Assembly: GCF_002159735.1 (NCBI RefSeq)
Contig: NZ_NFJF01000005.1
Coordinates: 62,001-126,000 of the forward strand
From: Olsenella sp. An270
GTDB taxonomy: Bacteria > Actinomycetota > Coriobacteriia > Coriobacteriales > Atopobiaceae
DNA: 64,000 nt
Direction: 5' to 3'
Shown here in pieces: positions 920 through 63,197 of this stretch (position 1 is the stretch's first letter; each line of letters begins with the position of its first letter). The notes under the pieces are model-generated. The model searched no databases. It was not told the origin of the DNA and saw only the letters and a program-made list of their open reading frames with translations. Made by a program: the position numbers and the translations under genes.

Positions 920-1783
920 TTAGATGTCAAACAGGGGCTCGCCGGGGAAGTCCGCGTCGTACGGTATGGCGTCGGGGAGCCCCACGGGGGCGTCGGACGC
1001 GACGAGGAGGTAGTTGTCCTCGACGGCGTGGGCGTCGTCGGTTGCGAGGGCGACCTCGACGTGCGAGAAGACGGAAAGGGCGGTCGAGACCTCCGAGCGC
1101 AGGAAGCTCACGTCCGTGCCGCCGTCGCGCGAGACGACGTTCGCGAGGAGGAGCCCGTCGGGCGCGAGGGCGCGCCGGGCCAGGCGCATCGCCTCGACCG
1201 TGGCGAGCGAGCGGACGGGGTCGGCACCGACGAACACGTCGAGGATCACGGCGTCATAGGGGCCGACGCGGCGCTCGAGGAAGCGGCGACCGTCGTCGCA
1301 GGTCACGCTCAGCTCGCCGCCGGACGTGCGGGCGAGGGAGACGGCCTCGTCAAGGAAGAACCAGCGACGTGCCGCCCGGATGACGGCGGGGTCTATCTCT
1401 ACGACGTCGGTTCGCACGCCCGGATGGCCCGCTGCCACGAGCTTGGGAAAAGCGAATCCCCCGCCGCCGATCGCGAGCACGCGTCGGGCGTCGGGGCGCA
1501 GGTCGAAGAGGCGCCCGAAGGCTCGGTAGTACTCGAAGACCGGCTCCATCCTCCCCTCGCCGAGATAGGTCGCGGACTGGAGGACGCCGCCCGTGCGCAG
1601 GACGCGCACGGGCTCGCCGGCGTCGTCGCGCATGACGTAGACGAGCGCGGGGCCGCTCATGGTGCGCACGACGTGCGGGCGCACGCGAGAGAGCCAGCGT
1701 GCCGCGACGGCGACGCCTGCCGCCAGCGCGGCGACCGCGACCTTGCTTCTTCCGGACAATGCACGCCTCCTCTCTGCCCACAT
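920..1783 (-). CDS. Spermidine-synthase-like SAM-dependent methyltransferase
   Basis: Class I SAM-binding fold related to spermidine synthases. Visible motifs are VLAIGGGGFAFPKLVAAG (motif I), DVVEIDPAVI (acidic ribose-binding loop) and YDAVILDVFVG (active-site strand). A hydrophobic segment (KVAVAALAAGVAVAARWL) near the N-terminus suggests a membrane anchor, as in the membrane-associated spermidine-synthase-like branch. The ATG at 1783 has no ribosome-binding site. A TTG at 1759 sits six bases after AGGAGG and is the likelier start. Substrate unknown; true polyamine synthesis is unlikely because no decarboxylase partner is nearby. Confidence 0.75.
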   Translation of the reverse strand: MWAERRRALSGRSKVAVAALAAGVAVAARWLSRVRPHVVRTMSGPALVYVMRDDAGEPVRVLRTGGVLQSATYLGEGRMEPVFEYYRAFGRLFDLRPDARRVLAIGGGGFAFPKLVAAGHPGVRTDVVEIDPAVIRAARRWFFLDEAVSLARTSGGELSVTCDDGRRFLERRVGPYDAVILDVFVGADPVRSLATVEAMRLARRALAPDGLLLANVVSRDGGTDVSFLRSEVSTALSVFSHVEVALATDDAHAVEDNYLLVASDAPVGLPDAIPYDADFPGEPLFDI

Positions 1784-1822
1784 GATAGACGGCTGCTACG
1801 ATTGGTGCCGGAAGGAGCGTCC

Positions 1823-2587
1823 ATGTCACTGAGGTTCATCGTCTCACCCGCCAAGAAGATGCGTGCGGTCGACGCGCCGCCCTGGCCCGTGCGCGAGCCG
1901 CGGTTCCTCAAACGGGCGGGGCGGCTCATGCGCGCGGTCCGGGCGCTCTCCCGCGACGAGGCCCAGGCCCTCTGGGCCTGCAGCGATCGGCTCGCCGACC
2001 TCAACTACGAGCGGTTCCAGGCCATGAACCTCGAGCGCGACACCACGGCGGCGGCCGTTGCCTACGAGGGAATCCAGTACACGCACCTCGCACCCGGGGT
2101 CATGTCCGAGCGCGAGCTCGCGTGGCTCGACGAGCACCTCCGTATCCTCTCGGGCCTCTACGGGGTGCTCCGGCCGCTCGACGGGGTGGTCCCGTACCGT
2201 CTGGAGATGCAGGCGCGCCTTGCTGTTGACGGTGAGCGCGACCTCTACGGGTTCTGGGGGAACTCCCTCTACGAGACGCTCGCCGAGGAGGGCTGCGACA
2301 CGATCGTCAACGTCGCCTCGGTCGAGTATGCCCGGGCCGTCACGCCCTGGGTTCGCCCCGACGGGCCCCAGGTCCTTACCTGCCTCTTTGGCATGGTGCG
2401 CGACGGGAGGCTCCGCCAGCCGGCGACCGAGGCCAAGGCGGCGCGCGGCACCTTCGTCCGCTGGTGCGCCGAGCGAGGCGTCGAGGAGCCGCGCGACGTG
2501 CGCGCCTTCGACGAGCGCGGCTATGCACTCGACGAGCGGCGCTCAGATGGCGACACCCTGGTCTTCGTTCGCACCGACAGTGCATAA
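1823..2587 (+). CDS. yaaA: YaaA (DUF328/UPF0246) peroxide-stress protein
   Basis: 254-residue YaaA-family protein. The family member in E. coli limits free iron and DNA damage during peroxide stress. The family signature MxFIxSPAKxM opens the protein (MSLRFIVSPAKKM), followed by YxGIQY and LSGLYGVLRPLDGVVPYRLEM near the middle, all typical. The ATG at 1823 follows GAAGGAG, which fixes this start over longer in-frame options. Divergent from the methyltransferase with about 40 bp between. Its TAA stop (2585-2587) lies inside the first arm of the palindromic element starting at 2582. Confidence 0.93.
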   Translation: MSLRFIVSPAKKMRAVDAPPWPVREPRFLKRAGRLMRAVRALSRDEAQALWACSDRLADLNYERFQAMNLERDTTAAAVAYEGIQYTHLAPGVMSERELAWLDEHLRILSGLYGVLRPLDGVVPYRLEMQARLAVDGERDLYGFWGNSLYETLAEEGCDTIVNVASVEYARAVTPWVRPDGPQVLTCLFGMVRDGRLRQPATEAKAARGTFVRWCAERGVEEPRDVRAFDERGYALDERRSDGDTLVFVRTDSA

Positions 2588-2867: not shown

Positions 2868-4391
2868 ATGCCGGACGTCGACGCGATCATAGAGCAGATC
2901 ATCGCCGCGACTCGCGCGAAGGGCGGCCGTGCCTTCGCGAGCGAGCGCACCTACGCCGACGAGCCGATCCTCCTGCGCGGCTCGCAGCTCGCCAGCTATC
3001 TTCCCGAGCCCATCCGCGAGATGCGGTCCCTCGCCCGTAGGCCCGAGGCCCGCTCTTGGTCGGACGCGCACCTGTTCGTGGAGCAGGCACGTCTCATGGC
3101 CGACTACGAGGACGACTTTCCCTACGAGGGGGAGTTCAAGAGCTACTTCCCGACCTACGAGTCGATGACCAACCCGCAGCTGCGTGGCTACTTCACCTGG
3201 CGCACGCACGTGCGCGGCGGCACCGTCGAGCGCACCTCCACGTCGTTCGCCTACGTCTACCTGTATGAGCTCATCAACGGCATCGGGGCGGATCCGGGGG
3301 AACCCGCGTTTCGCGCCATCGAGTCGTTCTGGCGGAGCTACCGCGCGTTCGAGCCCGCCATGGACCGCTACGTTCGCCCCTGGCTCGTAGACTATGCGAT
3401 CTACCATAGCCTTCCCGCCGAGCTCGCCCGGCCCTACCTCAACACCGCGCATGACCGCGCGGTCGCGGTCCTCGCCCGCGCGGAGGCGGACGCGCTCGCG
3501 TCCTCCCGACGGGGAGGGCGCCGCAGGGACCCCTATGTGAACAGGGCAGACCCCGAGCTCCTCGACGCGCTCGACGCGCTCTCCACGTACCGTCTCAAGG
3601 AGACTCGTCTCTACCAGGACGATCCCGACGCGCTCGCGAGCGTCGCCTGCGGAACCTTCTTCCAGCTCGCCCGCTACTACAGCGGAAGCCGTGCCCAGGG
3701 CATCACCGAGAGCCTCTTCGGCGTGCGCCACGCGATGCCTCACCTCATGTTCGCGTCGGCCGTGTTCTATCCCGGGGAGCGCCACGAGGACTGCGTCGTC
3801 GAGCTCGACGACACCTGCCGCTTCGTTTGCCGCAACGGAATCTGGACCCGCGACTCCCTTCATGACGGCGGTGCCCGGAGCGCCAAGCTGGGGCAGATCC
3901 TCCATGCCGTCGACCAGCGGCTCCGAGAGGCGCTCGACTACCCCCACCAGCTCAAGGGCCGCGGTGACCCCAAGTACCTCGCGCAGATCATCGACCGCGA
4001 AGCCCGTGACTTCCTGGAGTGGCGCCGCACCCACACACCCCGCCGCATAGAGATCGACCTCTCCAAGCTCGCGAGCATCCGGTCGACCGCCGCCGAGACC
4101 CGCGAGGCGCTGCTCGTGGACGAGGAGCGCGAGGACGAGATGACGGTCCTCGTTCCAAAACGGGCGGACGGGGCAGGCGAGGGGCTCGGGCTCTCCCCCG
4201 ACGAGCTCGCGTTCCTCCGGGGCCTCCTCGACGGACGCGCCGAGGCCGTCGCCAGCGTCGACCTTATCGTCGACTCCATTAACGAGAAGCTGTTCGACCT
4301 CGTGGGCGACACCGTCGTCGAGTTCGACGAGATGGGTTCCCCCGCCCTGGTCGAGGACTACATCGAGGACGTACGCGAGGCGCTCTCTTAG
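2868..4391 (+). CDS. TerB_N / TerB_C domain protein
   Basis: 507 residues. The N-terminal half carries TerB_N features: FKSYFPTYESMTNPQLRGYFTWRTHVRGG, then a long helical region with YVYLYELINGIG. The last 65 or so residues (LSPDELAFLRGLLDG to EDVREALS) fit TerB_C. TerB-type proteins are metal-binding helical modules that recur beside DNA-processing genes and phage-defence systems; the biochemical role is unknown. The ATG at 2868 is chosen because GGGAGG precedes it. It is followed 55 bp later by a DUF2791 ATPase on the same strand, and a helicase of the BrxHI type lies further down, suggesting a functional unit. Confidence 0.8.
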   Translation: MPDVDAIIEQIIAATRAKGGRAFASERTYADEPILLRGSQLASYLPEPIREMRSLARRPEARSWSDAHLFVEQARLMADYEDDFPYEGEFKSYFPTYESMTNPQLRGYFTWRTHVRGGTVERTSTSFAYVYLYELINGIGADPGEPAFRAIESFWRSYRAFEPAMDRYVRPWLVDYAIYHSLPAELARPYLNTAHDRAVAVLARAEADALASSRRGGRRRDPYVNRADPELLDALDALSTYRLKETRLYQDDPDALASVACGTFFQLARYYSGSRAQGITESLFGVRHAMPHLMFASAVFYPGERHEDCVVELDDTCRFVCRNGIWTRDSLHDGGARSAKLGQILHAVDQRLREALDYPHQLKGRGDPKYLAQIIDREARDFLEWRRTHTPRRIEIDLSKLASIRSTAAETREALLVDEEREDEMTVLVPKRADGAGEGLGLSPDELAFLRGLLDGRAEAVASVDLIVDSINEKLFDLVGDTVVEFDEMGSPALVEDYIEDVREALS

Positions 4392-4403
4392 TTAGAACAC
4401 GTG

Positions 4404-4412
4404 TGCTAGAAT
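4404..4412 (+). promoter_or_regulatory. Extended -10 promoter for the DUF2791 ATPase gene
   Basis: TGCTAGAAT is an extended -10 (TGn plus TAGAAT) located 35 bp before the ATPase start codon. No good -35 is seen at the expected spacing, consistent with an extended -10 promoter. It would let the ATPase be transcribed independently of the TerB gene. Confidence 0.4.
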
Positions 4413-4446
4413 TGCCTCCTCACAGGCAAAGAGGAGGGGTGACACA

Positions 4447-5739
4447 ATGGGTGACGTGCGGGTACCCAAGCGCATAGCGGCGGTCATCATCAACTCCCTC
4501 AAGGGCGGCGTCGTGCCGCGCATCGGGTTGCCCTACGTCACCGTGGGCCGGGAGCGTGAGATTCAGGCGCTCCTGCACGACCTCGAGCTCGTGGCAGACG
4601 GCGGCGCGAGCTTCCGCTTCCTCGTCGGCCGCTACGGCGCCGGCAAGAGCTTCCTGCTGCAGACCATCCGCACGCACGCCATGGGAAACGACTTCGTCGT
4701 GGCGGACGCCGACCTCTCCCCCGAGCGTCGCCTCCAGGGCGGGCAGGGCCAGGGCCTCGCCACCTATCGCGAGCTCGTCCGCAACCTGTCCACCAAGACG
4801 CGCCCCGAGGGCGGTGCGCTCCAGCTCGTGCTCGACCGCTGGGTCGCGGCGCTGCGCGAGCAGCCCGACGCCGAGGTTGCCCTCGCCGAGCAGCTCGCCC
4901 CCATCCGCGAGCTCGTCTGCGGCTTTGACTTCACGCAGGTCCTGCGGCTCTACTACCAGGCCAGCCTCGAGGGCGACGACGAGCGGCGCGCCGGTGTGGT
5001 CAAGTGGCTCCGCGGCGAGTTCCGCACCAAGACCGAGGCCCGCACCGAGCTCGGCGTCAACGCCTGCATCACCGACGACACCTGGTACGAGTACCTCAAG
5101 CTCTTCGCACAGTTCCTCGTGGGCGCCGGCTACAAGGGCCTCGTCGTGCTGATAGACGAGCTCGTGAACCTCTACAAGATCCCCAACGCCACCTCGCGCC
5201 AGTACAACTACGAGAAGATCCTCACCATGTACAACGACACGCTCCAGGGCAAGGCGCATCACCTGGGGATCATCATGGGCGGCACCCCGCAGTCCATCGA
5301 GGACCGCCGCCGTGGCGTCTTCTCCTACGAGGCCCTGCGCAGCCGTCTCACGCAGGGGCGCTTCGCGAGCGCCGGTCTCGCGGACATGCTCGCGCCCGTC
5401 ATTCACCTGGAGCCGCTCACCTACGAGGAGCTGCTCGTCCTCATCGAGAAGCTCGCCGACATCCACGCCGGCTACTTCGGCTACGAGCGCACCCTCACCG
5501 AGACGCAGCTCGTGAGCTTCCTCAGGACCGAGTTCGGTCGCGTCGGCGCCGACACCCACCTGACGCCGCGTGAGGTCATCCGCGACTTCATCGAGCTTTT
5601 GGACATACTGTGCCAGAACCCGGGCGCAAACGTGGACGCCCTGCTCAAGACCGACGCGTTCTCCGGAGCCGTCGCTGCCCCCGTCGTGGCGGCCGGCGCT
5701 CAGGACGTCGACGACGCCTACGCCGAGTTCACGATCTAG
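4447..5739 (+). CDS. DUF2791 P-loop ATPase (BrxD-like)
   Basis: 430 residues, cytoplasmic AAA-like ATPase of the DUF2791 family, which includes BrxD of type 2/6 BREX phage-defence systems. Walker A is GRYGAGKS (61-68) and Walker B is GLVVLIDEL (231-239). The segment LGIIMGGTPQSIEDRRRGVFSYEALRSRL is a family hallmark. AGAGGAGGGG precedes the ATG. It lies between a TerB_N protein and, 1.9 kb on, an Lhr-like helicase, the usual partner of BrxD. No BrxC, PglX, PglZ or BrxA/B is in the window, so this is not a canonical BREX locus. Its stop codon overlaps the convergent lipoprotein stop by two bases. Confidence 0.82.
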   Translation: MGDVRVPKRIAAVIINSLKGGVVPRIGLPYVTVGREREIQALLHDLELVADGGASFRFLVGRYGAGKSFLLQTIRTHAMGNDFVVADADLSPERRLQGGQGQGLATYRELVRNLSTKTRPEGGALQLVLDRWVAALREQPDAEVALAEQLAPIRELVCGFDFTQVLRLYYQASLEGDDERRAGVVKWLRGEFRTKTEARTELGVNACITDDTWYEYLKLFAQFLVGAGYKGLVVLIDELVNLYKIPNATSRQYNYEKILTMYNDTLQGKAHHLGIIMGGTPQSIEDRRRGVFSYEALRSRLTQGRFASAGLADMLAPVIHLEPLTYEELLVLIEKLADIHAGYFGYERTLTETQLVSFLRTEFGRVGADTHLTPREVIRDFIELLDILCQNPGANVDALLKTDAFSGAVAAPVVAAGAQDVDDAYAEFTI

Positions 5740-6653
5740 GCGTCGCCGCCCGCATCCCATACCTTCTCGACAACGTCGCGCTCGTCCACCACATACGCGG
5801 AGTAGATCGGCTCGTCCGGCGCCGTCGCGTTCACCTCGAGATAGCGGGGACCCTCCCCGTCGCCGGCGAGCTCGTAGTAGACACGCCCGTCGCCCGTCCA
5901 CGACACGCAGCAGGGCCGGCCAAAACGCTCCTCGAAGTCATCGACGTTCTTCTCGCCCCCGTCGAGAAACGCAGTGACGTCATCAACGTCTGGGATGGTG
6001 TCCCCGACCTCGTAGCGCAGGGGGTCGTCATTCACGAGGCGCGTCTCCCACTCCAGGGGATAGCTCAGCCGGAGGTGCAGTCCCGTCCCCTCGGGCCAGT
6101 CCGTCTCGCGCGCGTCGTAGAGCATCGCCGAGTACGCGTCCTCGGACCACACGATGACGGTGGAGACGCCCACCTCTGCCTCGTCAAAGTCGTTCTCGCT
6201 CACAAGCGTCATGTAGCACCAGTAGTTCTTTCCGCCGAGGGCAAACGAGAAGTCGGTCGAGAGTTCGACGCGGCGCTTGCCGTCATCGATCCTCTCGGAT
6301 TCCATGGGGCGCGTCACCGAGTGGGTGTCCAGGTAGCCAACGTGACCGGAACAACTCTCCGCCAGCTCCCTGGCCTGATCGTCAAGATCATCGGAGCCCG
6401 CGCGGACCTCGGGCGAAAAGAGCTCGACGATCGCATCCCCGTCGCCTGCCTCGAGGGCATCGAGAAGGCCCTCCGCCGCGTCGAGGCAGGCCTGTCCCCG
6501 CGGGCTCACGTACTCCTCGCCCGTCACCTGGCTTTTGACAAAGCGGACGAGGGAGTCAACGCGCTCGGAGCATCCCGCACACAAGGCGACTACGGCCAGC
6601 GCGAGGGCACACGTCGCGAGAGCCCTTACGCGGAACTCGTCTTTTGCGCTCAT
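5736..6653 (-). CDS. Secreted lipoprotein, unknown function
   Basis: 305 residues. A signal peptide with lipobox (ALAVVALCAGC) predicts a lipid-anchored extracytoplasmic protein. After the Cys, an N-terminal region reads SPRGQACLDAAEGLLDALEAGDGDAIVELFSPEV, the layout seen in DUF5104-type lipoproteins; assignment to that family is tentative. GGGGGAG lies before the ATG. The gene is transcribed against the surrounding TerB/ATPase/helicase genes, and its stop overlaps the ATPase stop, leaving no room for a separate terminator. Confidence 0.7.
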   Translation of the reverse strand: MSAKDEFRVRALATCALALAVVALCAGCSERVDSLVRFVKSQVTGEEYVSPRGQACLDAAEGLLDALEAGDGDAIVELFSPEVRAGSDDLDDQARELAESCSGHVGYLDTHSVTRPMESERIDDGKRRVELSTDFSFALGGKNYWCYMTLVSENDFDEAEVGVSTVIVWSEDAYSAMLYDARETDWPEGTGLHLRLSYPLEWETRLVNDDPLRYEVGDTIPDVDDVTAFLDGGEKNVDDFEERFGRPCCVSWTGDGRVYYELAGDGEGPRYLEVNATAPDEPIYSAYVVDERDVVEKVWDAGGDA

Positions 6654-6704
6654 GACTCCCCCTCACACGAGGTCGTATCAAGCCGCCGTGCGCGACCGAC
6701 ACCC

Positions 6705-7199
6705 CTATTCTTGCCGAATCTCCAGTAGTTTGCACATGTCCGTCGCGTTGAGCGCTGCTACGGGGCAGTGTCGCAGGAGCGCTTCGTCGTTGGTCACGAG
6801 ATAGTCGACCTTGCCTCGCATCGACGATGCGATGACGAGGTCGTCCTCGAAGTCCCCGTGCAGGGCACGCTGCTTGGTGGCCATCCACACGTCCGTGTGG
6901 TCGAGCGGTACGGCGCAGGCAATTGCCTGCATGTTGTTGATACAGCCCCATGCCGTGGCGGTCGCCGCCTGAGCGGCGGAATCGCTGAGCGAGCCAGCCG
7001 CCGCGCGCTCGGCGCGCTTGTGTTCAGCCGCCACCATGTAGTACACGTCCTTGACGGTTGAGACGGCATAGGCCAAGGTCCGATTATCCTCGAGGGCACG
7101 CTCTATGAGCTGCCTGGCCACCGCGTGACCACCTCTCCAAGGGAGATAGTAGTCAAGCCAGACATTGGTATCCAGGAGCATAGATAGCCGCGGGCTCAC
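6705..7199 (-). CDS. PIN-domain toxin of a type II toxin-antitoxin pair
   Basis: 164 residues, PIN ribonuclease fold. It shows MLLDTNVWLDYY with the first acidic residue at D10, the central DFEDDLVIASS, and the C-terminal YLVTNDEALL. VapC-like PIN toxins cleave RNA in a metal-dependent way. The GTG at 7199 follows AGGGGG and overlaps the antitoxin stop (GTGA), implying translational coupling; an internal ATG at 7181 has no ribosome-binding site. Paired with a RelB/DinJ-like antitoxin, a mixed pairing known in actinobacteria. Confidence 0.82.
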   Translation of the reverse strand: MSPRLSMLLDTNVWLDYYLPWRGGHAVARQLIERALEDNRTLAYAVSTVKDVYYMVAAEHKRAERAAAGSLSDSAAQAATATAWGCINNMQAIACAVPLDHTDVWMATKQRALHGDFEDDLVIASSMRGKVDYLVTNDEALLRHCPVAALNATDMCKLLEIRQE

Positions 7200-7570
7200 G
7201 AATCCAGCCCCCTCTCACGAAGACGCTCGAGCAGGACCTGCTCTCTGAGCTCGTCATAGGAGAGCTCCTCAAGGTCCTCGGGCACCGATATGCCCCGAGA
7301 GGCCAGCGAGCGCGCTACTATCTGACTTCCCTCTCGTGCCAGCGCGAGCTTGCGATCCCGCTCGACACGCGCCGCGGAAGACGACTCTGCCTGCTGGCCT
7401 GACACGAGCTCCCTGATCTTCTCGGGTTGGTCCGCCAGGCTGGAAAAACGCCCCCACATCGCACGAATGGCCTTCGTGGGCGTGAGCCCCGCCTCGGCAA
7501 GGGCCGCATCTCCCGAGACCTTGAGGTTCGCATCTATGCGTGCATTGATCTGCGCGAGCGTGGTGTCCAT
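7196..7570 (-). CDS. RelB/DinJ-family antitoxin
   Basis: 124 residues. The N-terminal segment TTLAQINARIDANLKVSGDAALAEAGLTPTKAIRAMWGR matches the ribbon-helix-helix DNA-binding domain of RelB/DinJ antitoxins. The rest is a charged helical tail that would bind the toxin. The ATG at 7570 is chosen because AAAGGAG precedes it; an ATG 15 bases upstream is poorly placed. First gene of the antitoxin-toxin operon. Two TGCTAGCA palindromes lie just upstream as likely autoregulatory operators. Confidence 0.82.
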   Translation of the reverse strand: MDTTLAQINARIDANLKVSGDAALAEAGLTPTKAIRAMWGRFSSLADQPEKIRELVSGQQAESSSAARVERDRKLALAREGSQIVARSLASRGISVPEDLEELSYDELREQVLLERLRERGLDS

Positions 7571-7596
7571 TGGTCTCCTTTCCAATGTAAAGCATA

Positions 7597-7617
7597 TGCT
7601 AGCATCTTCTGCTAGCA
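7597..7617. promoter_or_regulatory. Double palindromic operator of the toxin-antitoxin operon
   Basis: TGCTAGCA occurs at 7597-7604 and again at 7610-7617, 13 bp apart, together forming a larger inverted repeat. It begins 27 bp upstream of the antitoxin start and fits binding by ribbon-helix-helix dimers, the usual autorepression mode of RelB-type antitoxins. Function inferred from position and symmetry. Confidence 0.55.
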
Positions 7618-7634
7618 GTGGCTAGGTCTTCTCC

Positions 7635-7663
7635 TTGCAATCAGAAACACTTGTTCGTATACT
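7635..7663 (+). promoter_or_regulatory. Promoter of the helicase gene
   Basis: TTGCAA (7635-7640), a 17 bp spacer and TATACT (7658-7663), ending 25 bp before the helicase ATG. It is the best -35/-10 match seen in the window and sits back to back with the toxin-antitoxin operator. Confidence 0.6.
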
Positions 7664-7687
7664 GACTGTCACCGAGGGGAGGTCGTC

Positions 7688-10072
7688 ATGGGCGTCTTTG
7701 ACCGATACGCGCCGTTCGTGCAGGACTTCATCTACGCGCACGAGTGGGAGAACCTGCGCGGCGTCCAGGTGGCCGCCGGCGAGGCGATCTTTGACACAGA
7801 TGACCACGTGCTTCTCTGCGCCTCCACCGCCTCAGGCAAGACCGAGGCCGCCTTCTTCCCCATCCTGACCGAGTTCTGGGAGGACCCGCCCGCATCCGTG
7901 GGCGCCCTCTACATCGGCCCCACCAAGGCACTCATCAACGACCAGTTCTACCGCCTCACCGACCTCTGCGAGGAGGCCGGGATCGACGTCTGGCACTGGC
8001 ACGGGGACGTCTCCGCCTCGCACAAGGCACGACTCGTGAAGCGCCCCTCCGGCATCCTGCAAATCACGCCCGAATCTCTCGAGGCGCTGCTCATGCGCCG
8101 CCATGCTGTGGTCTCCAAGCTCTTCTACGACCTGCGCTACGTCGTTATCGACGAGGTCCACTCGCTGCTGCGACAGGACCGAGGTGGGCAGTGCCTCTGT
8201 CTCATCGAGCGTCTGGCGAGAATAGCGGGCGTGCAGCCGCGGCGCATCGGCCTCTCCGCCACGATCGGCGACCCCGAGACCGTGGGCGCGTTCCTCGCCG
8301 CCGGCACCGGGCGCAACACGGTCGTCCCCCGCATCGAGGAGCCCCCGCGCACCTGGCGCCTCTCGATGGAGCACTTCTACCAGAGCGGCCCGCAGGCCGA
8401 CGAGTCCGAGCTCCAGACGGCAGACGGAAGCACCGAGGTTGACGTCATCGCACTGGAGCCCGAGGATGCCTCGCCAGAGGGCCGGGGCTTATTGCCGCGC
8501 GCAGTTCCGCACGAGCCGGACGAGCCGGTGGCTCGTCCGTGCGAGCAGGACTGTTTGAGCACGGCGATAAGCCCCGGCCCTCCCGAAGCCCCCACGGACC
8601 TGGCGCCCGCGAACGCCGACCCTGACATCGGGTACATCTTCGAGCACACTCGTGGTAGAAAATGTTTGATTTTTAGCAACTCGCGCGAGGAGGCGGAGGA
8701 GGTCTGCACGACGCTGCGCGCCTACTGCGAGTTCAACGGGGAGCCGGACCGCTTCCTCATCCATCACGGCAACCTCTCGGCCGCCATCCGCGAGAGCGCC
8801 GAGGAGCAGATGCGCGACGACGCCTCGGACCTCTCGATCGTGGCCACCGCCACGCTCGAGCTGGGCATCGACGTGGGCCGTCTCGAGCGGGCGTTCCAAA
8901 TCGACGCGCCGTTCACCGTCTCCGGGTTCCTCCAGCGCATGGGCCGTACGGGACGCCGCGAGGCCCCGCCCGAGATGTGGTTCGTCATGCGCGAGGAGCA
9001 GCCGGAGGCCCGCACGCTCCTGCCGGAGACCATCCCCTGGAAGCTGCTCCAGGGTATCGCGCTCGTCCAGCTCTACCGCGAGGAGCGCTGGGTCGAGCCG
9101 CCCAACCTGAACCGCCTTCCCTACAGCCTGCTCTGCCACCAGACGCTCGCCACGCTCGCCGGCGAGGGGGAGCTCTCCCCCGCCCAGCTCGCGAGCCGCG
9201 TGCTCACGCTCACCTACTTCCATCGCGTGACGACTGACGACTTCCGCGAGCTCCTGCGCCACCTGATTCGCAACGACTTCGTCGAGCAGACCGAGGGCGG
9301 CGGCCTCATCGTCGGCCTCGCCGGCGAGCGCGTCACGAGCTCCTACAAGTTCTTCGCGGTCTTCCAGGAGAACGTGGAGTACACCGTGCGCTCGGGTTCC
9401 GAGGAGATCGGCACGCTCTGCGCACCGCCCCCGCCCGGCGAGAAGGTCGCCATAGCGGGGCACGTCTGGATCGTGGACGAGGTGGACCACGAGCGGCACC
9501 TGCTCTACGTCACGCAGGTCAAGGGCAGGGTCCCGGCGTATTTTGGCGACGTGGCGGGAGACATTAACACGCGCATCCTCGAGCGCATGCGTCGCGTACT
9601 GGAGGAGAGCACGCCCTACCCCTACCTGCGCGACCACGCCCGCGCCCGCCTGCGCGAGGCCCGTCGTGTGGCGCGCAACTCCCGACTCACGGCCGGCCCG
9701 CTCGTCTGCCTCGGCGAGAACGACAAGGAGCAGACCATGTGGTGCCTGCTGCCGTGGCTGGGGACCTACGCGTTTCTCGCCCTGGAGCGCCTGATCAAGA
9801 TCAAGTGCGCCGCGGAGCTGGGCATCAAGGGCGTCAACTCGTCGCGTCCGTACTTCATGACCTTTGTCATGGCAGCCGACGAGCAGACGTTCCTCTCGGT
9901 GGTCAAGGACGCGGCGGAGCGCCTCACGGACCCGATGGAGCTCCTCTACCCGGCAGAGGTCCCCTACTTCGAGAAGTACGACGAGCTCGTGCCCGAGAGC
10001 CTGGTCCGCAAGGGCTTCGCCTGCGGCGTGCTCGACGTCGAGGGCATGCGCGAGAGCGTCGCCGCCTGGTAG
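7688..10072 (+). CDS. Lhr-like DEAD/DEAH helicase (BrxHI-type)
   Basis: 794 residues, superfamily 2 helicase. Motif I is ASTASGKT (45-52), motif II is DEVH (155-158), motif III is GLSATIGD (about 188-195), and motif VI is QRMGRTGRR (about 416-424). A long C-terminal region follows, as in Lhr-like helicases. GGGGAGG precedes the ATG. In type 2/6 BREX a helicase of this class (BrxHI) accompanies the BrxD ATPase; here it lies downstream of a BrxD-like gene, separated by opposite-strand genes and with its own promoter. Residues 264-299 between the two RecA domains are low-complexity (Pro/Glu-rich) and are encoded by a large palindrome, an unusual insertion that keeps the frame. Confidence 0.85.
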   Translation: MGVFDRYAPFVQDFIYAHEWENLRGVQVAAGEAIFDTDDHVLLCASTASGKTEAAFFPILTEFWEDPPASVGALYIGPTKALINDQFYRLTDLCEEAGIDVWHWHGDVSASHKARLVKRPSGILQITPESLEALLMRRHAVVSKLFYDLRYVVIDEVHSLLRQDRGGQCLCLIERLARIAGVQPRRIGLSATIGDPETVGAFLAAGTGRNTVVPRIEEPPRTWRLSMEHFYQSGPQADESELQTADGSTEVDVIALEPEDASPEGRGLLPRAVPHEPDEPVARPCEQDCLSTAISPGPPEAPTDLAPANADPDIGYIFEHTRGRKCLIFSNSREEAEEVCTTLRAYCEFNGEPDRFLIHHGNLSAAIRESAEEQMRDDASDLSIVATATLELGIDVGRLERAFQIDAPFTVSGFLQRMGRTGRREAPPEMWFVMREEQPEARTLLPETIPWKLLQGIALVQLYREERWVEPPNLNRLPYSLLCHQTLATLAGEGELSPAQLASRVLTLTYFHRVTTDDFRELLRHLIRNDFVEQTEGGGLIVGLAGERVTSSYKFFAVFQENVEYTVRSGSEEIGTLCAPPPPGEKVAIAGHVWIVDEVDHERHLLYVTQVKGRVPAYFGDVAGDINTRILERMRRVLEESTPYPYLRDHARARLREARRVARNSRLTAGPLVCLGENDKEQTMWCLLPWLGTYAFLALERLIKIKCAAELGIKGVNSSRPYFMTFVMAADEQTFLSVVKDAAERLTDPMELLYPAEVPYFEKYDELVPESLVRKGFACGVLDVEGMRESVAAW
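8477..8582. repeat. Large palindrome inside the helicase reading frame
   Basis: GAGGGCCGGGGCTTAT (8477-8492) is the exact reverse complement of 8567-8582. Pairing continues about five bases inward with one wobble. A second hairpin, GGACGAGCC / GGCTCGTCC around a GGT loop (8518-8538), lies in the centre. It encodes a Pro/Glu/Ala-rich linker between helicase domains 1 and 2, resembling palindromic elements that insert in-frame in coding genes. Confidence 0.8.
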
Positions 10073-37435: not shown

Positions 37436-39115
<1,680 letters not shown>

Positions 39116-57191: not shown

Positions 57192-58592
57192 TCAGCGGAT
57201 TGCCGCCTGGTACGAATCCGGTACGAATCGTTCTTGGGGTTGCTCTGAGGTACTTTCAGGGGCGTTTTCCACGAGCTCACGAGGTGAGCTTACGAGGGTG
57301 AGTCGGCGCCCGCCGTTGATGACGCGGGGCTCGACTTGGACGATCGGAGTGACGGCGGGGGCGGCCTCGACGGGTTCGGAGAAGAGGTCGCTCACGACGT
57401 CTGCCGCCGCACGCTTGGCCTCCATGTTCACGTGGGTGTAGATCTCCATCGTGATCTCGCTCGAGGCGTGGCCGGCCAGCTCCTGCATCACCTTGGGATG
57501 CACGCCCCTCAGAGCGAGCGTGGAGAGGTAGGAGTGGCGTAGCTCGTGGAACGCCCAGCCATTGAGGCCGAGCGTCTCGCGGTCGCGCAGCCACCATGCC
57601 TCGAGCACGTTTGGGCTGAGCCTGCCCATGGTCGTGCTGAGAACGACCGGGGTGCTCTCGCTCTGCTCCAGGCGTTTTCCGGGCTTCTCGCCGTTCTTCT
57701 TCGCCAGCCTCTCCTGCTCCGCCGCGTACTCGTCAATGCGGGCCTTCTGCGCCTCCTTGTGCATGACGAGGGCGTCTCGGACGGAGTCGGGCATGGGGAG
57801 GCGCCGCACGCCGGCCTTCGTCTTGGGGTCCTTGAGGTTCCCGAAGCAGTCGTAGGACTTGCGGATCGATATGACCTGGCTCTCGAGGTCGACGTCGCGC
57901 CACGAGAGACCGCAGACCTCCCCGCGACGCATCCCGGTGCTGACCGCGAGGAAGTACGCGATGTCGGCCTCCCGGGTGAAGTCGAGCTGCGCTATGAACT
58001 CCCGGATGGCCTCCGGCTTGAGGGCGCGGCGGGGCTGGGTGTCCCTGCGCGGCGTGTCCATCTCGGTGCAGGGGTTCTTGGCGACGACACCGTCCTTCAC
58101 GAGGTCGTCGAACAGCAGCTTGAGCGTCTTGTGGATCTGGTTGAGATAGGTGCCGCTGGCGGGCTTGCCGGAGAGGGTGTCGCCGGAGCGCATGGCGGCG
58201 TACATCTTCTCGAGCGTCTCTCGCGTGACCTTCGAGGCGTCGGCGTAGCCGATGTGACGGTTGATTGCCTTGAAGAATCGCTCGTAGGTCACGTTGGTGT
58301 TCTCGGTGAACTCGCCGGACGCACGGCGCCTCGTCATGAAGTCCTCCGCGCACTCCTTGATGGTCGTGCCCGACCTCTTGTGCACCTCGTCGTTCTCGAT
58401 CTCCTTGATGAACTCGCGCAGGGCCTTCTTCGCCTCGGTGTAGGTGCCGTTGAAGCGCCTCGTGCGGGTCTTGTACTTGCCCGTGCGGGGGTCGAGCCCC
58501 ACGGGGACTCGCAGCTGCCACTTGCGGCACTTGCTCTTGGGCTTGTCCTTCTCGAGCTGGACTATGGTGCCCTCGCCCGTGACCTTTGCCAT
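57192..58592 (-). CDS. int: Tyrosine-family integrase
   Basis: 466 residues. N-terminal AP2-like arm-binding region (about 20-60), SAM-like core-binding domain (75-170) and catalytic domain with R222 (TGMRRGEV), H349-x-x-R352 (HELRHSYL), H375 (LAGHAS) and Y385 (EIYTHV), all present. Integrates and excises the element by recombination at att sites. It has an extended C-terminal tail of about 70 residues. Start ATG two bases after the upstream small gene's stop, so the genes are coupled. Lies at the element edge, pointing outward. Confidence 0.95.
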   Translation of the reverse strand: MAKVTGEGTIVQLEKDKPKSKCRKWQLRVPVGLDPRTGKYKTRTRRFNGTYTEAKKALREFIKEIENDEVHKRSGTTIKECAEDFMTRRRASGEFTENTNVTYERFFKAINRHIGYADASKVTRETLEKMYAAMRSGDTLSGKPASGTYLNQIHKTLKLLFDDLVKDGVVAKNPCTEMDTPRRDTQPRRALKPEAIREFIAQLDFTREADIAYFLAVSTGMRRGEVCGLSWRDVDLESQVISIRKSYDCFGNLKDPKTKAGVRRLPMPDSVRDALVMHKEAQKARIDEYAAEQERLAKKNGEKPGKRLEQSESTPVVLSTTMGRLSPNVLEAWWLRDRETLGLNGWAFHELRHSYLSTLALRGVHPKVMQELAGHASSEITMEIYTHVNMEAKRAAADVVSDLFSEPVEAAPAVTPIVQVEPRVINGGRRLTLVSSPRELVENAPESTSEQPQERFVPDSYQAAIR

Positions 58593-58594
58593 GG

Positions 58595-58792
58595 CTACTC
58601 ACCGTCCCCGACGACGACGTAGGGCGGGCGGTAGCGCCACTCGAGGTCGCGGGCGAGCTCGCGCTGCCAGGGCTCGTCGAGGCGCAGGGCCTCGCCGGGG
58701 GCGGCGACGAGGGCGACGGCGGGAACCTCGTTACCGGAGCCGTCCGTGAGGGAGAAGGACATGATGCTGAGGTTCTTCTCTGCCTTGGCCAT
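58595..58792 (-). CDS. Small protein upstream of integrase
   Basis: 65 residues, no recognised domain: MAKAEKNLSIMSFSL, then an Ala/Leu/Glu-rich part ending WRYRPPYVVVGDGE. AGGAGG precedes the ATG at 58792. It lies between the XRE gene (5 bp upstream) and int (2 bp downstream), so it is surely in that operon. A recombination accessory role is possible but not shown. Confidence 0.6.
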   Translation of the reverse strand: MAKAEKNLSIMSFSLTDGSGNEVPAVALVAAPGEALRLDEPWQRELARDLEWRYRPPYVVVGDGE

Positions 58793-58797
58793 GGCGC

Positions 58798-59184
58798 TCA
58801 CCTCCTGCCCTGGGAGCGGGCGGCGCGCTCGCCGAGCTCCACGTAGGAGAGGTAGCTGTCCACGAGGGCGCGGCCCTCGGGGCTGAGGGCTTCGTAGCGG
58901 GGCTGGATGCCCTCGGGCTCGGGCGCGTCGATGTCCTCGCGGCCGATGACGAGGTCGATGGAGCAGCCCAGCTTGTCCGCGATCTGCCACGCCGCCGGCA
59001 GCGGGATGCCGCAGTCGGCGCCGTCGCCGGCGCGCTCGTAGCGCGCGTAGGTTGAGCCGGGGATGCCGAGCGCCTCGGCGAACTCCTTCGCGGAGCGGTA
59101 GCCCGCCTCGCGGCGCAGGCGCTGGAGTGTTCTTTTGCCGCTGATGGCCTTGTAGGGGGTTTGGGAGGTTGCAGCCAGTGACAT
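58798..59184 (-). CDS. XRE-family repressor 1
   Basis: 128 residues. HTH at about residues 15-75: ISGKRTLQRLRREAGYRSAKEFAEALGIPGSTYARYERAGDGADCGIPLPAAWQIADKLGCSIDLVIGRE. The tail has PRYEALSPEGRALVDSYLSYVELGER. Similar in design to the second XRE gene upstream (both contain STYARYE), so likely a paralogue. The ATG at 59184 lies within an 18-bp palindrome; no clear ribosome-binding site. Confidence 0.78.
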   Translation of the reverse strand: MSLAATSQTPYKAISGKRTLQRLRREAGYRSAKEFAEALGIPGSTYARYERAGDGADCGIPLPAAWQIADKLGCSIDLVIGREDIDAPEPEGIQPRYEALSPEGRALVDSYLSYVELGERAARSQGRR

Positions 59185-59195
59185 ATACTTGTCAC
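59178..59195. promoter_or_regulatory. Palindrome covering the repressor 1 start codon
   Basis: GTGACA, TATACT, TGTCAC. The ATG of the XRE gene (59182-59184) is inside, so a bound dimer could block initiation, or the hairpin could block the ribosome. Candidate self-operator. Confidence 0.45.
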
Positions 59196-59229
59196 CGTCC
59201 CTTCTGGATTTGCCTCTGGACCGGACGCC

Positions 59230-59261
59230 GGGCCCGTGGGAGTGCCAGCTCCCGCGGGCCC
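59230..59261. terminator. Hairpin between the two XRE genes
   Basis: GGGCCCGTGGGAG (59230-59242) pairs with CTCCCGCGGGCCC (59249-59261), 13 bp with one wobble, loop of six. No U-tract on the minus strand. It may attenuate transcription from XRE 2 into XRE 1 and int. Confidence 0.5.
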
Positions 59262-59275
59262 ACCTGTTTCTCCTT

Positions 59276-59962
59276 CTACGCCTTCGCATCACCGCCCCTC
59301 GCGCTCGCCTCGGAGTCGTACTCGACCGCGACGCCGTGGTCGACGGAGCCCCACAGCACGCGCGTGCCCTCGAGCTCGAACTCGCCGTGGGTGCGGTCGT
59401 AGGCCGCCATGATCTTCTCGATGGTCCTGTTGTCGATGAGCTCCTGCGCCTTGAGCGGGTGCTTGCCGCGCTTCTTCGCTGCCTGCTCCCGGAGGAAGGA
59501 CTCGAAGGCGGCGCGGGCGGCCTCGGCGCTGTCGAACGCGACGAGCTCGCCGAAGGCGGCGCCGTCACGCATCTGGGAGAGCATCTGCTGCTCGTACTGG
59601 TAGCAGAGCGCCTCGTAGGGGCGCTCCTCCTCGCGGCGCTTGCGCGCGCGGATCTTCTCGTCCTTCTGCAGCACGAACTCGCGGAGCTCGTCGGCGAGCT
59701 GCCGCGCCTCGGGCGTGAGCCCGTCGTACTCGAGCTGCACCTCGCCGCGCATGCACGCGGGGTCGGGCACCTCGCGGTCGACAATGGCGTCGATGGTGGT
59801 GCCGAAGATGTCCGCGAGCTGCCAGGCGCGGTCCATGGGGATCTTGTCGGGGTTGGACTCGTAGCGCGCGTAGGTGGAGGTCGGGATCTCGTACTCCACC
59901 GCGAACTCGTTGGAGTTCTTGTAGCCCGCCGCCTTACGGAGCTTCAGAAGGTTGCTCGCCAT
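59276..59962 (-). CDS. XRE-family regulator 2
   Basis: 228 residues. N-terminal HTH (about 1-65): LLKLRKAAGYKNSNEFAVEYEIPTSTYARYESNPDKIPMDRAWQLADIFGTTIDAIVDRE. Residues 85-170 are helical and charged (KDEKIRARKRREEERPYEALCYQYEQQML), and the end holds a small beta domain (GEFELEGTRVLWGSVDHGVAVEYD). Likely the element's master regulator, divergent from the excisionase-like gene across a 273-bp AT-rich control region. Confidence 0.8.
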   Translation of the reverse strand: MASNLLKLRKAAGYKNSNEFAVEYEIPTSTYARYESNPDKIPMDRAWQLADIFGTTIDAIVDREVPDPACMRGEVQLEYDGLTPEARQLADELREFVLQKDEKIRARKRREEERPYEALCYQYEQQMLSQMRDGAAFGELVAFDSAEAARAAFESFLREQAAKKRGKHPLKAQELIDNRTIEKIMAAYDRTHGEFELEGTRVLWGSVDHGVAVEYDSEASARGGDAKA

Positions 59963-60025
59963 GCACTCCGCCTCTCTCGGATGTGTTCGTCCTGTGGAGG
60001 GGTGCCCTCGGCGCCCTCCGTTTCG

Positions 60026-60126
60026 TTGTTACGCTTCGCAACAAATTCTATCACTAGTTGACAAGCTGTTCAATCGTATAGGGTCATTCTACCTCAAAAC
60101 TTGCAAAGAATCTCACTTGTTGACAA
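60026..60126. promoter_or_regulatory. Control region between XRE 2 and the excisionase-like gene
   Basis: Contents: near-palindrome TTGTTACG-CTT-CGCAACAA at 60026-60044; minus-strand promoter TTGAAC (60068-60073), 17 bp, TAGAAT (60045-60050); direct repeat CACTAGTTGACAA (60052-60064) and CACTTGTTGACAA (60114-60126), 12 of 13 identical, 62 bp apart. These suit cooperative repressor binding between divergent promoters. No plus-strand promoter with ideal spacing was found. Confidence 0.55.
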
Positions 60127-60235
60127 TTCCTGTGATATTCTACCGCTGCACGGCGACGAAACGTGCCACTTCGTGACAGACGGTTCGGAGCCGTGCGTGC
60201 GGTCCAGAGGCAAATCGGAGGAGAGGGAGCGAGAG

Positions 60236-60439
60236 ATGAGTTTCGAGGAGCTGCCGTACTTCATGACCCCCAAGCAGCTCGCCGACGTGACCGGCGAGCA
60301 CGAGGGATCCATCACCCGCGGCATACGCGAGGGGCGGATCCCCGCCGACAAGGTGAACGGTCGCTGGCGGATCTGCCGCGACGTGATCTTCAAGAACGCG
60401 AAGAAGGGGGCCTCGAATGACGGAGAGGGCCGCGAGTAG
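60236..60439 (+). CDS. Excisionase-like HTH protein
   Basis: 67 residues. MTPKQLADVTGEHEGSITRGIREGRIPADKVNGRWRICRDVIFKNAKKG has the winged-helix layout of small excisionase/MerR-like proteins. GGAGGAGAGGG precedes the ATG at 60236. The end of the gene overlaps the primase-helicase start by 23 bases. Could be an Xis directionality factor or regulator of the replication operon. Confidence 0.72.
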   Translation: MSFEELPYFMTPKQLADVTGEHEGSITRGIREGRIPADKVNGRWRICRDVIFKNAKKGASNDGEGRE

Positions 60440-63197
60440 CCCACGCGGAGCGGGCTCCCTCGCCGACGCGCTGGCACGCGTCCCTGCGGAGCTCAAGGCC
60501 GAGCCGCGCTGGGTGTGCTGGCGGCGCGAGGAGCGCAACGGCAGGGCGACGAAGCTGCCCGTGGACGCGCACACGGGGCGCATGGCCAAGAGCACCGACC
60601 CCGCGACCTGGGCGACCTTCGAGGAGGCCGTGGCGGCCGTCGGCCGCTGGCGCTGCGACGGCGTGGGATTCGTGTTCGGACCCGACCGGGCGTTCACGGG
60701 GCTCGACCTCGACCATGTGCTTGTCGACGGCGTGCTTGACGCGGAATACCGCTGGGTGATGGACGAGGCCGGCACCTACACGGAGGTGTCGCCCTCCGGC
60801 GACGGGCTGCACCTGATCTTCCGGGGCGGAAAGCCCGACTGGGCGACCCGCTCGCGAAAGGGGCAGCCCGGCGGGCGCGTGGTGGAGATGTACGACCACG
60901 ACCGCTACTTCACGGTGACGGGGGACGTGTTCGAGGGTCGCGGGACGCTGGGCTCCAACCCCGAGGTCGTCGAGAAGGCATACCGGACGTGGATCGAGCC
61001 GGAGCGGGCCGCCGCGCAGCCGACGCTCTCGGAGGTGCCAACGGCCGGCGCGGACATGGACGACGGGGCGCTGCTCGAGCGCATGTACGCCTCCCGCAGC
61101 GGCGACGCGATCCGCGCCCTCATGGCCGGCGACTGCTCGGCGCAGGGCGACGACCGATCGGCGGCCGACATGGCGCTGTGCTCGCACCTCGCCTTCTGGT
61201 GCGCCGGTGATGCCGCCCGCATGGACCGGATCTTCCGCGCAAGCGGCCTCATGCGCGACAAGTGGGACAGCCGCCGGGGCGGCACCACGTACGGCGCGCA
61301 GACGATAGAGCGGGCCGTGGAGGGCTGCACGGAGTTCTACCGGCCGAGGGAGCGGCGGGCCGACCGTCCTTCTCGCCCCGTGCGTCCTTCTCGCGTCAAT
61401 GACAAGAACATGTGTTCGACCGCTGCGCCCGACACGGACGGAGGGGGCTCCCCCGACGAGGAGGCGCCGGACTTCGAGACGGCGCCGTCTGTGGAGGGGT
61501 GGTTCGTCGACGCTCGCGGGCGGCTGTGGGTGCGCGGACGCGACGGGGAGCTTTCGCGCTCGGTGACCTCGACGGCGCCCTGGGTGGCGGCCGACCTCGT
61601 GGACGTGGACACCGGCGACGTGCGCGCCCTCGTGCGCGTGACGGTGCCCGGCGGCGTACGCGAGCGGGCGCTCGACCGCGAGGTGCTGCTCAACCAGAGC
61701 AAGGTGATCGGCGCGCTCGCGCCCCTCGGGGCCAACGTCTCGTCGGCCAACGCCAAGGACGTCGTGCGCTACCTGACCGACGTGGAGCGCCGCTACGGAT
61801 GGGCGCGGCCGCGCGCGAGGAGCGTCGTGCACCTGGGGTGGGCGGACGGCCCGCTCTCCGCCTTCATGCCCTACGACCTGGGCGCGGGCGGCGTGCGCTT
61901 CGACCCCAGCCCGGACGAGGCGGTGAAGGCGCGCCCCTTCATGGAGCCGGCGGGCACGCTCGCGGCGTGGGTGGAGGGCGTGGCGCCGGCGCGGGCCGCC
62001 TCCATGGCGTTCCGCTGCGTGCTGGCGGCGAGCTTCGCGTCGCCCCTGGTGTCTCTCCTGGGCGTGCAGACCTTCATCGTCTACCTCTGGGGGCGCTCGC
62101 GCTCCGGCAAGACGCCGACCCTCAAGGCCGCCGGCAGCGTGTGGGGCGACCCCACCGAGGGCGCGGACAGCTACTTCCGCACCTTCGCGGACACGCCCAA
62201 GAGCATCGTGCGCGCGGCGGCGCTCCTGCACGACATACCCGTGATCATCGACGAGCTGCAGAGCAAGGGCGCCGTGGGCGGCCAGGCGGGCAAGCGGCAG
62301 GTCGTGGAGGACCTGCTCTACTCGCTCTCCATCGGCCACGAGCGCGGGGCGCTGAACAGCGACCGGACGATGATGAGGGCGGGCTCGTGGCGCTGCCTGA
62401 CGATAGCCACGGGCGAGATCCCCATCGTGGGCTCCTCCACGCAGCAGGGCGCGGCGAACCGCACCCTCGAGCTCTGCGCCGAGCCCTTCGAGGACGTGCG
62501 CGCCGCCCAGGCCATGCACCACCTCGTCTCCGCGCAGCACGGAACCGCGGGGCGGGCATACGTGGCGGCGCTGAGGCGAAACGACGCGGCCTTCTACGCG
62601 GGGCAGTTCTCCTCCGTGCGCGACGCTGTGTGCGCCGCCGCCGGCGGGCACCCGCAGGCAGACAACGTGGCGCTGCTCGCCCTCGCGGACGCCCTCGCGC
62701 AGTTCTACGTGTTCGCGCCGGGCAGCGACTGGGCGGCGTGCCTGGAGGGCGCGATGCTGATGGCGCGCTGGGCGCTCGTGAACGCCACGGGCGCGGACGG
62801 AGGCGACACCGACGTGAAGGCGATCCAGTTCGTGGCCGAGTGGCTGGTGCGCAACCGCCTGCACTTCGAGAGCTCGGCGGAGATGGACCGGCTCGAGCGA
62901 TGGGGCTCCGTGGAGCAGTATCGCGACCGCCCGGGCTTCTGCTGGTGGGTCTTCTCGTCCGTGCTCGACCAGGCGCTCGCGGGCGCCAACTTCGACAGGC
63001 AGAAGACGCTCCGGCGCATGGCCGACGAGGGCGTGCTGCTGCCCGGCTCCGGGCGCGGGTTCACGCGGCAGAAGCGCTTCGGCGACTCGCGGGTGTACTG
63101 CGTGTGCGTCGACAACGCGGCGCTCGAGGCTATGCTCGAGCGCTCTGCGGGCGCGCCGCCCTCGGTGGCTCCGTCTCAAGGGGGCGGGCCATGCTGA
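60417..63197 (+). CDS. Phage/plasmid primase-helicase with DUF927 domain
   Basis: 926 residues. The N-terminus (1-300) is a primase-like region: RWVCWRREERNGRATKLPVD, GVGFVFGPDRAFTGLDLDHV, YTEVSPSGDGLHLIFRG, typical of NrS-1/D5-type plasmid primases, plus a PriCT-like helical part. From about 350 a DUF927 module holds Walker A GRSRSGKT (about 559-566) and Walker B IIDEL (about 609). Replicates or amplifies the excised element. ATG follows AAGGGGG inside the previous gene. The end of the gene already contains a repeat of the iteron-like array. Confidence 0.85.
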   Translation: MTERAASSPRGAGSLADALARVPAELKAEPRWVCWRREERNGRATKLPVDAHTGRMAKSTDPATWATFEEAVAAVGRWRCDGVGFVFGPDRAFTGLDLDHVLVDGVLDAEYRWVMDEAGTYTEVSPSGDGLHLIFRGGKPDWATRSRKGQPGGRVVEMYDHDRYFTVTGDVFEGRGTLGSNPEVVEKAYRTWIEPERAAAQPTLSEVPTAGADMDDGALLERMYASRSGDAIRALMAGDCSAQGDDRSAADMALCSHLAFWCAGDAARMDRIFRASGLMRDKWDSRRGGTTYGAQTIERAVEGCTEFYRPRERRADRPSRPVRPSRVNDKNMCSTAAPDTDGGGSPDEEAPDFETAPSVEGWFVDARGRLWVRGRDGELSRSVTSTAPWVAADLVDVDTGDVRALVRVTVPGGVRERALDREVLLNQSKVIGALAPLGANVSSANAKDVVRYLTDVERRYGWARPRARSVVHLGWADGPLSAFMPYDLGAGGVRFDPSPDEAVKARPFMEPAGTLAAWVEGVAPARAASMAFRCVLAASFASPLVSLLGVQTFIVYLWGRSRSGKTPTLKAAGSVWGDPTEGADSYFRTFADTPKSIVRAAALLHDIPVIIDELQSKGAVGGQAGKRQVVEDLLYSLSIGHERGALNSDRTMMRAGSWRCLTIATGEIPIVGSSTQQGAANRTLELCAEPFEDVRAAQAMHHLVSAQHGTAGRAYVAALRRNDAAFYAGQFSSVRDAVCAAAGGHPQADNVALLALADALAQFYVFAPGSDWAACLEGAMLMARWALVNATGADGGDTDVKAIQFVAEWLVRNRLHFESSAEMDRLERWGSVEQYRDRPGFCWWVFSSVLDQALAGANFDRQKTLRRMADEGVLLPGSGRGFTRQKRFGDSRVYCVCVDNAALEAMLERSAGAPPSVAPSQGGGPC

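Follow-up and report, generated by a model that had tools for sequence, protein, structure and literature searches.

An apparently near-core Shango system, with an interrupted operon, in Thermophilibacter and related Atopobiaceae

Shango is a known three-gene anti-phage system that encodes a TerB protein (SngA), an ATPase (SngB) and a helicase (SngC). Its first report from Escherichia coli is said to be that of Millman and colleagues in 2022. Shango of Pseudomonas aeruginosa PA14, placed in strain PAO1, cut the plating of many, though not all, tested phages 10-100-fold (PMC10250203). Outside the bacteria described here the system is mobile, with a hotspot in P. aeruginosa, and a metagenome survey describes restriction-modification genes that tend to sit near Shango genes outside defence islands (PMC10924106). 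Related proteins occur in type 2 BREX, in which BrxD and BrxHI are likewise a AAA+ ATPase and an Lhr-like helicase; in a 2026 survey, BrxD is described as an ORC-Cdc6 AAA+ ATPase and proposed as a possible loader or activator of BrxHI on DNA (PMC12839542), and neither TerB nor Shango occurs in the main text of that survey. Defence genes are normally expected to be gained and lost from one strain or species to the next, and a preprint on Eggerthella lenta describes most defence systems as strain-variable, with AbiE the only core one (PMC13060105). Here we describe a Shango locus in a 64,000-nucleotide stretch of DNA, hereafter the window, from Olsenella sp. An270 (contig NZ_NFJF01000005.1, positions 62,001-126,000). 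The genome (2.0 Mb, 14 contigs, 98.6% complete) is taken to belong to Thermophilibacter (Atopobiaceae); among the matches listed, the closest named SngB is that of Thermophilibacter gallinarum (96%). We consider it quite probable that Shango lies near the core genome in this group, that it is inherited vertically at least within genera, that three unrelated genes have parted sngB from sngC, and that the three proteins act together in immunity by the mechanism proposed below. What is new is the near-core behaviour in this group, the system itself being known. No report of near-core Shango in these bacteria was found in a literature search that covered neither subscription papers nor supplements, and the search returned nothing on anti-phage activity of Shango in Coriobacteriia; Shango and TerB are unmentioned in PMC12458937.

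Three open reading frames occupy the + strand of the window in the order sngA-sngB-sngC over 7 kb, with the coordinates given correctly in a first-pass annotation of the DNA (Table 1). All three are matched by the PADLOC models for Shango (PDLC03958-03960), over profile positions 46-525 of 528 for SngA, 4-438 of 439 for SngB and 5-717 of 720 for SngC. They consist of a TerB-family protein, a AAA+ ATPase of the BrxC/BrxD family and an SF2 helicase of the SngC/BrxHI kind, the same families, order and single strand as described for Shango of P. aeruginosa PA14 and E. coli (PMC10250203). The central TerB domain (PF05099) was not among the Pfam matches of SngA at an E value of 0.1. On these sequence matches the trio is Shango; the annotation, which had suggested a stand-alone defence module, was right about the kind of system, although that kind is already in print. 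The compact operon of PA14 is not seen in the window, where sngB and sngC are separated by a gap of ~1.9 kb filled by three opposite-strand genes (5736-7585), a feature omitted from the annotation.

At least one Shango gene was found in 110 of 140 Atopobiaceae genomes and all three in 104, so that the trio co-occurs well beyond the window, a point on which the first-pass annotation had made its proposal depend. The six partial genomes (G068, G081, G083, G105, G110 and G124) are fragmented drafts of 170-590 contigs. Counted singly, SngA occurs in 108 genomes, SngB in 106 and SngC in 109, the last figure being reached from 113 genomes at a cut-off of 1e-40 after removal of four (G018, G022, G028 and G029) in which the match is another, longer helicase. 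In these four genomes, which are without Shango, that helicase lies in an open frame of 1,613-1,749 aa and is matched weakly by the SngC model (9e-62 to 1.5e-75). Copy number is mostly one: in G067, with 8% contamination, SngB (full length) and SngA are each present twice, and a few extra match rows stem from remnants or from copies divided between contigs. Two further, partial SngB matches (G084:C1:321385-321888 and G105:C204:5791-6297), each with an in-frame TAG, may be remnants of second copies.

Other genes provided a scale for these counts. Across the 101 best family assemblies, SngB was found in 80, rpoB in 101, HsdR_N in 48, Cas1 in 47 and PglZ in 15. Within the genus of the window (g1, 31 genomes), 30 members carry a Shango gene (SngA 29, SngB 29, SngC 30; rpoB 31), compared with 11 for HsdR (type I restriction), 5 for Cas1 and 4 for PglZ; the sole member without any Shango gene, G094, is 81% complete. 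Nineteen genera are represented by at least two genomes, and Shango is present in all members of 12, in none of 5 and in some members of 2, which makes it all-or-none in 17. The same counts (all/none/mixed) are 3/4/12 for HsdR, 3/2/14 for Cas1 and 0/10/9 for PglZ, or all-or-none in 7, 5 and 10 genera, respectively, all ten of the PglZ genera being without the gene. In the 395 genomes of the order, SngB was found in 192, including the 106 of Atopobiaceae (f1), 62 of the 65 in family f3 (G143-G207), 13 in family f4 (which spans at least G208-G342) and 11 in four smaller families; judging from the named loci, f3 is presumably Coriobacteriaceae and f4 Eggerthellaceae. A draw of 396 genomes from the phylum gave SngB in 18, of which 17 fall within the order. 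Relatives of SngB, all less than 60% identical, were found on 680 plasmids (448 from Klebsiella and 144 from Salmonella), 539 of them classed as conjugative, and at the one plasmid locus opened, from Klebsiella, a compact TerB-ATPase-helicase trio lies close to a Lit-family gene and IS110. No SngB match was found at 1e-20 in 50,697 phage records. In Atopobiaceae, and seemingly in the Collinsella group, Shango thus appears to be a near-core, mostly single-copy set rather than a mobile defence-island element. In contrast to the mobile Shango described elsewhere, it is chromosomal, genus-wise vertical, often interrupted and sometimes split.

A tree of SngB and SngC combined, built from 60 genomes having SngB, SngC and RpoB, recovered each of 12 multi-genome genera as one group (12/12) and required 16 changes, the minimum. 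A control tree of 40 HsdR type I restriction proteins, which were picked by the author from the matches and include paralogues and long branches, kept none of seven genera whole and required 22 changes against a minimum of 10. In both the SngB+SngC tree and the RpoB tree, genus g28 stands next to g1, and G088 falls outside the remaining 22 g1 rows; in the RpoB tree, G088 joins g1 with a support of just 57. Distances among 58 genomes also track those of RpoB, with Mantel correlations of 0.42 for SngA, 0.54 for SngB and 0.46 for SngC, and none of 499 shuffles as high. Together, these results argue for vertical inheritance at least within genera.

The three reading frames of the window are intact. 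Within the genus, the median ratio of nonsynonymous to synonymous substitution rates (dN/dS) is 0.128 for SngB and 0.155 for SngC, compared with 0.149 for RpoB and 0.310 for SngA, at median dS values of 0.43, 0.58, 0.24 and 0.78, respectively, which shows that the genes are unequal in dS as well. SngB and SngC are under purifying selection, with rpoB-like constraint. At 17 loci, dN/dS of SngA (0.315) exceeds that of its neighbors YaaA (0.254) and SpdS (0.215), and mean column identity is 72% for 26 SngB and 40% for 36 SngA. Internal stops are absent from the 59 SngA, 61 SngB and 61 SngC copies extracted; in the wider family search, the SngA match is broken by a stop in G098, G110 and G139, and so are partial SngB matches in G082, G084 and G105. 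The DExH motif and motif VI are present in 61/61 SngC, and the Walker A sequence GRYGxGKS in 56/61 SngB, four of the other five having GKYGSGKS.

Gene order is kept where the operon is opened. All three genes were present in 58 of the 60 stretches fetched, without exception in the order A-B-C and on one strand. Gaps in 58 genomes range from 8 bp to 9.8 kb between sngA and sngB and from 7 bp to 9.2 kb between sngB and sngC, and G040 has a sngB-sngC gap of 17 kb; at L105, exceptionally, sngC lies on the opposite strand. The two remaining stretches, from G088 and G084, lack sngA. In G088, a single contig of 2.16 Mb, sngA sits at the YaaA-SpdS site and sngB-sngC 1.17 Mb away, and in G084 sngA is at the same site with sngB-sngC on another contig. 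Tools that require adjacent genes may miss such split copies. Since the compact form (both gaps below ~135 bp) occurs in many other genera and at three Thermophilibacter-type loci (L040, L046 and L047), it is taken as ancestral.

The named loci (L032-L111) are the best 80 of at least 577 confirmed loci, a choice that favors near relatives, and genes in their gaps were called with a rough codon model that makes mistakes (at L051, a called gene runs across the lipoprotein gene on the opposite strand). The gaps hold 100 predicted genes of at least 70 aa in 31 clusters, the largest being those with a LytTR-domain representative (16), ABC-transporter (10), DUF5104 (10), Fe-hydrogenase (8), VapC (7) and RelB (6). 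Relatives of the DUF5104 gene of the window occur at 11 of the 80 named loci, and at 10 of these the gene calls place one between sngB and sngC. In the same gap, VapC-type relatives occur at seven loci and RelB relatives also at seven by tblastn (six called as a gene). The DUF5104 gene and the VapC/RelB-type pair recur at this position in Thermophilibacter, together or separately, which would fit either a repeatedly used site or one old insertion that has been partly lost. The lipoprotein-like DUF5104 gene is not thought to be a Shango component.

Structural models were consulted for SngA and SngB, and solved sequences for SngC. SngA (AlphaFold, mean predicted local distance difference test score, pLDDT, of 86.9) is mostly helical with a winged-helix-like C-terminal end at residues ~435-507. 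Foldseek gave no solved match for it at an E value of 0.001, and a second structure comparison gave only weak rows (Z of at most 5.5), the C-terminal end matching winged-helix proteins weakly at a Z of ~5; the model thus suggests no clear solved fold, and a new fold is not claimed. SngB carries the Walker A sequence GRYGAGKS in the window and is predicted to have an ORC/Cdc6-like fold, its best solved match being an archaeal Cdc6/Orc1 (Z 15.6, root-mean-square deviation 3.6, 256 aligned). The mean pLDDT of the SngB model is just 72.5, other AAA+ proteins also score Z 12-13, and the single Foldseek match below 0.001 is a ClpX chain. The solved sequences nearest to SngC are 5v9x (5.8e-27), 7lhl (4.3e-26) and YprA 6znp (7.5e-24); the first two, whose entries are titled ATP-dependent DNA helicase, we take to be Lhr-type. 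SngC thus resembles the Lhr and YprA/MrfA repair helicases, and differs from them in its length of 794 aa and its end-to-end fit to the SngC model. Compared with the 720 positions of that model, SngC has an extra stretch at residues ~225-315 (window ~8360-8630), between the helicase halves, which looks acidic and of low complexity by eye.

By analogy to BrxD and BrxHI, the ORC/Cdc6-like SngB would load the Lhr-like SngC onto DNA that is aberrant or foreign, or activate it there; SngA, the TerB protein that evolves fast, may be the adaptor or sensor that chooses this substrate. SngC would then unwind or strip the DNA and thereby block phage replication. Because Pfam matched no nuclease domain in SngA, SngB or SngC, any degradation would be left to host enzymes.

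Three other explanations were weighed against this one. One, put forward in the first-pass annotation, is a BREX-like variant with TerB in the place of core parts. In its favor, BrxD and BrxHI are relatives of SngB and SngC, and a published tree unites SngC with BrxHI, DruE and DpdJ in a single clade that may be distinct (PMC12278908). The BREX models, however, score far worse (BrxD 6.1e-47 and BrxHI 5.4e-127) than the Shango models for SngB and SngC (Table 1), so the names BrxD and BrxHI hold for relatives and not for the same parts. The window genome (G000) has no match to PglZ (PF08665) and a single match to PF10923 (BrxC_BrxD), which is SngB of the window itself; the earlier remark that no BREX core is seen therefore extends to the whole genome for PglZ and for BrxC besides SngB, while PglX, PglW, BrxA and BrxB were not searched for. 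PglZ is present in 22 of the 140 family genomes compared with 110 for Shango, and the two are therefore not tied. With a TerB protein instead of a BREX core, weaker model scores and no PglZ, the locus differs from type 2 BREX, and a BREX variant was rejected on the family scores and the missing PglZ as having almost no probability. A nested defence island, in which Shango is a frame for other defence genes, the VapC/RelB pair included, would fit gaps that are recurrent and variable. Among 29 representatives of the 31 insert clusters, PDC-S01, a candidate defence family, is matched by one protein at 1.4e-37, a match not traced to its protein; the other PADLOC matches at 1e-10 are only to mad3 and mad8, one protein each, and are read as generic ABC ATPase. 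The Pfam families of the inserts (25 of 31 shown) are hydrogenase, ZnuA, MFS, MupG, nucleotidase and similar, and this idea was rejected as very improbable because the tested inserts are mostly ordinary genes.

The serious alternative is that SngABC is a genome-maintenance machine of Coriobacteriia, acting for example in stalled-fork rescue or crosslink repair with its ORC-like loader and Lhr-like repair helicase, and that the plasmid-borne Shango found elsewhere is a mobilized relative that also hurts phages. As an explanation of the distribution, a housekeeping role is at least the equal of immunity: the trio is near-universal in the genus, mostly single-copy, vertical at genus level and constrained like rpoB, it is kept even where scattered (G088 and G084), and the opened gaps hold mostly ordinary genes. 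The nearest solved helicases point the same way, Lhr and MrfA being described as repair helicases in abstracts. The DNA-repair unit that the annotation had offered as its alternative is a live option given this distribution. Whole genera (5 of 19) are nevertheless without the trio, so Shango is dispensable; SngB occurs in only 13 genomes of f4, SngA evolves faster than its neighbors, as an immune adaptor might, and the tested homologue, that of PA14, is anti-phage. Immunity is the most likely role, and we regard housekeeping as less probable, rather doubtful but well worth weighing. Several observations also weigh against near-core, vertically inherited immunity as we propose it. The five genera without Shango are one, and for helicase loading the model draws on BrxD/BrxHI by analogy. 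The deep order of genera differs between the SngB+SngC and RpoB trees (e.g. g34 and g25), so old transfers between lineages are possible. Inside the genus, SngB distances correlate weakly with those of RpoB (0.18; SngC 0.35, SngA 0.53), G098 has a divergent SngB (76%), and dS of SngB and SngC lies below that of SngA, which recombination between species could also cause.

For a defence system, a near-core position such as that of Shango here is unusual, and it suggests a permanent function. Tentatively, we suggest that in Atopobiaceae and Collinsella-type Coriobacteriia a phage defence became, or always was, near-core, its loader, helicase and TerB adaptor providing permanent genome surveillance or repair, with plasmid Shango as the mobilized relative; this is possible, though not what we most expect. 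A system that almost the entire genus and the larger part of the family retain, even with its operon broken, is well suited to the question of whether some 'immune' systems carry out routine DNA work.

Table 1. Shango genes, inserted genes and flanking features in the window
Feature	Position in window	Strand	Evidence
sngA, TerB_N/TerB_C protein, 507 aa	2868..4391	+	Pfam TerB_N 1.3e-24, TerB_C 8.2e-14; PADLOC SngA 7.2e-74
sngB, AAA+ ATPase of the BrxC/BrxD (DUF2791) family, 430 aa	4447..5739	+	Pfam BrxC_BrxD 7.6e-156; PADLOC SngB 1.4e-176
sngC, Lhr/BrxHI-like SF2 helicase, 794 aa	7688..10072	+	Pfam DEAD 1.3e-27, Helicase_C 3.6e-17; PADLOC SngC 7.3e-264
Inserted gene, lipoprotein-like, DUF5104	5736..6653	-	Pfam DUF5104 5.8e-7
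Inserted gene, PIN-domain (VapC-type) toxin	6705..7199	-	Pfam PIN_3 6.8e-10
Inserted gene, RelB-type antitoxin	7196..7585	-	Pfam RelB 4.6e-5
Promoter-like site, TTGCAA-17-TATACT	7635..7663	+	Consensus scan; 24 bp 5' of sngC
Spermidine-synthase-fold protein (SpdS)	920-1783	-	Pfam; flank of sngA
Peroxide stress protein YaaA	about 1793-2587	+	Pfam; flank of sngA

The consensus scan found two promoter-like sites, against 0.5 expected from shuffles of the 7.9-kb region, and predicts that sngC may have a separate promoter. The sngA flank is fixed in Thermophilibacter: YaaA and SpdS adjoin it at 19 of 21 Thermophilibacter-type loci (L032-L051 and L075), the fetched stretch ending too early at the other two (L033 and L050), and they do so in G088 and G084 as well. 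A SpdS-like gene, ~45-53% identical, borders Shango at many Collinsella loci too, where it lies 3' of sngC (e.g. L073, 13872-14645), and the spermidine-synthase-fold protein of the window has a weak match to PADLOC mad2. At L075, in G098, SngB is 76-79% identical to that of the window and SngC 93%, with a 5.3-kb insert alongside that holds genes such as ZnuA; here sngB alone has probably been replaced by another allele.

A defence island around the locus was also considered. Of 55 predicted genes in the window, 48 were scanned with PADLOC, the five locus genes and two short ones being left out, and 39 families (25 shown) matched at 1e-10, including PD-T4-6, mad3, mad6 and MkoA. Ten proteins were followed, and the mad3, mad8, AriA and Toprim-ATPase matches trace to an ABC-type protein at 37439-39115. 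The PD-T4-6, mad3, mad6 and MkoA matches are read as look-alikes, the proteins behind PD-T4-6, mad6 and MkoA not having been traced, and the island was rejected, though a further defence gene may lie in the window. A mobile element perhaps lies at 57195-63194, near the window's end, where a phage-integrase-family protein (57195-58592) is encoded together with one that is DUF927/NrS-1-polymerase-like (60417-63194).

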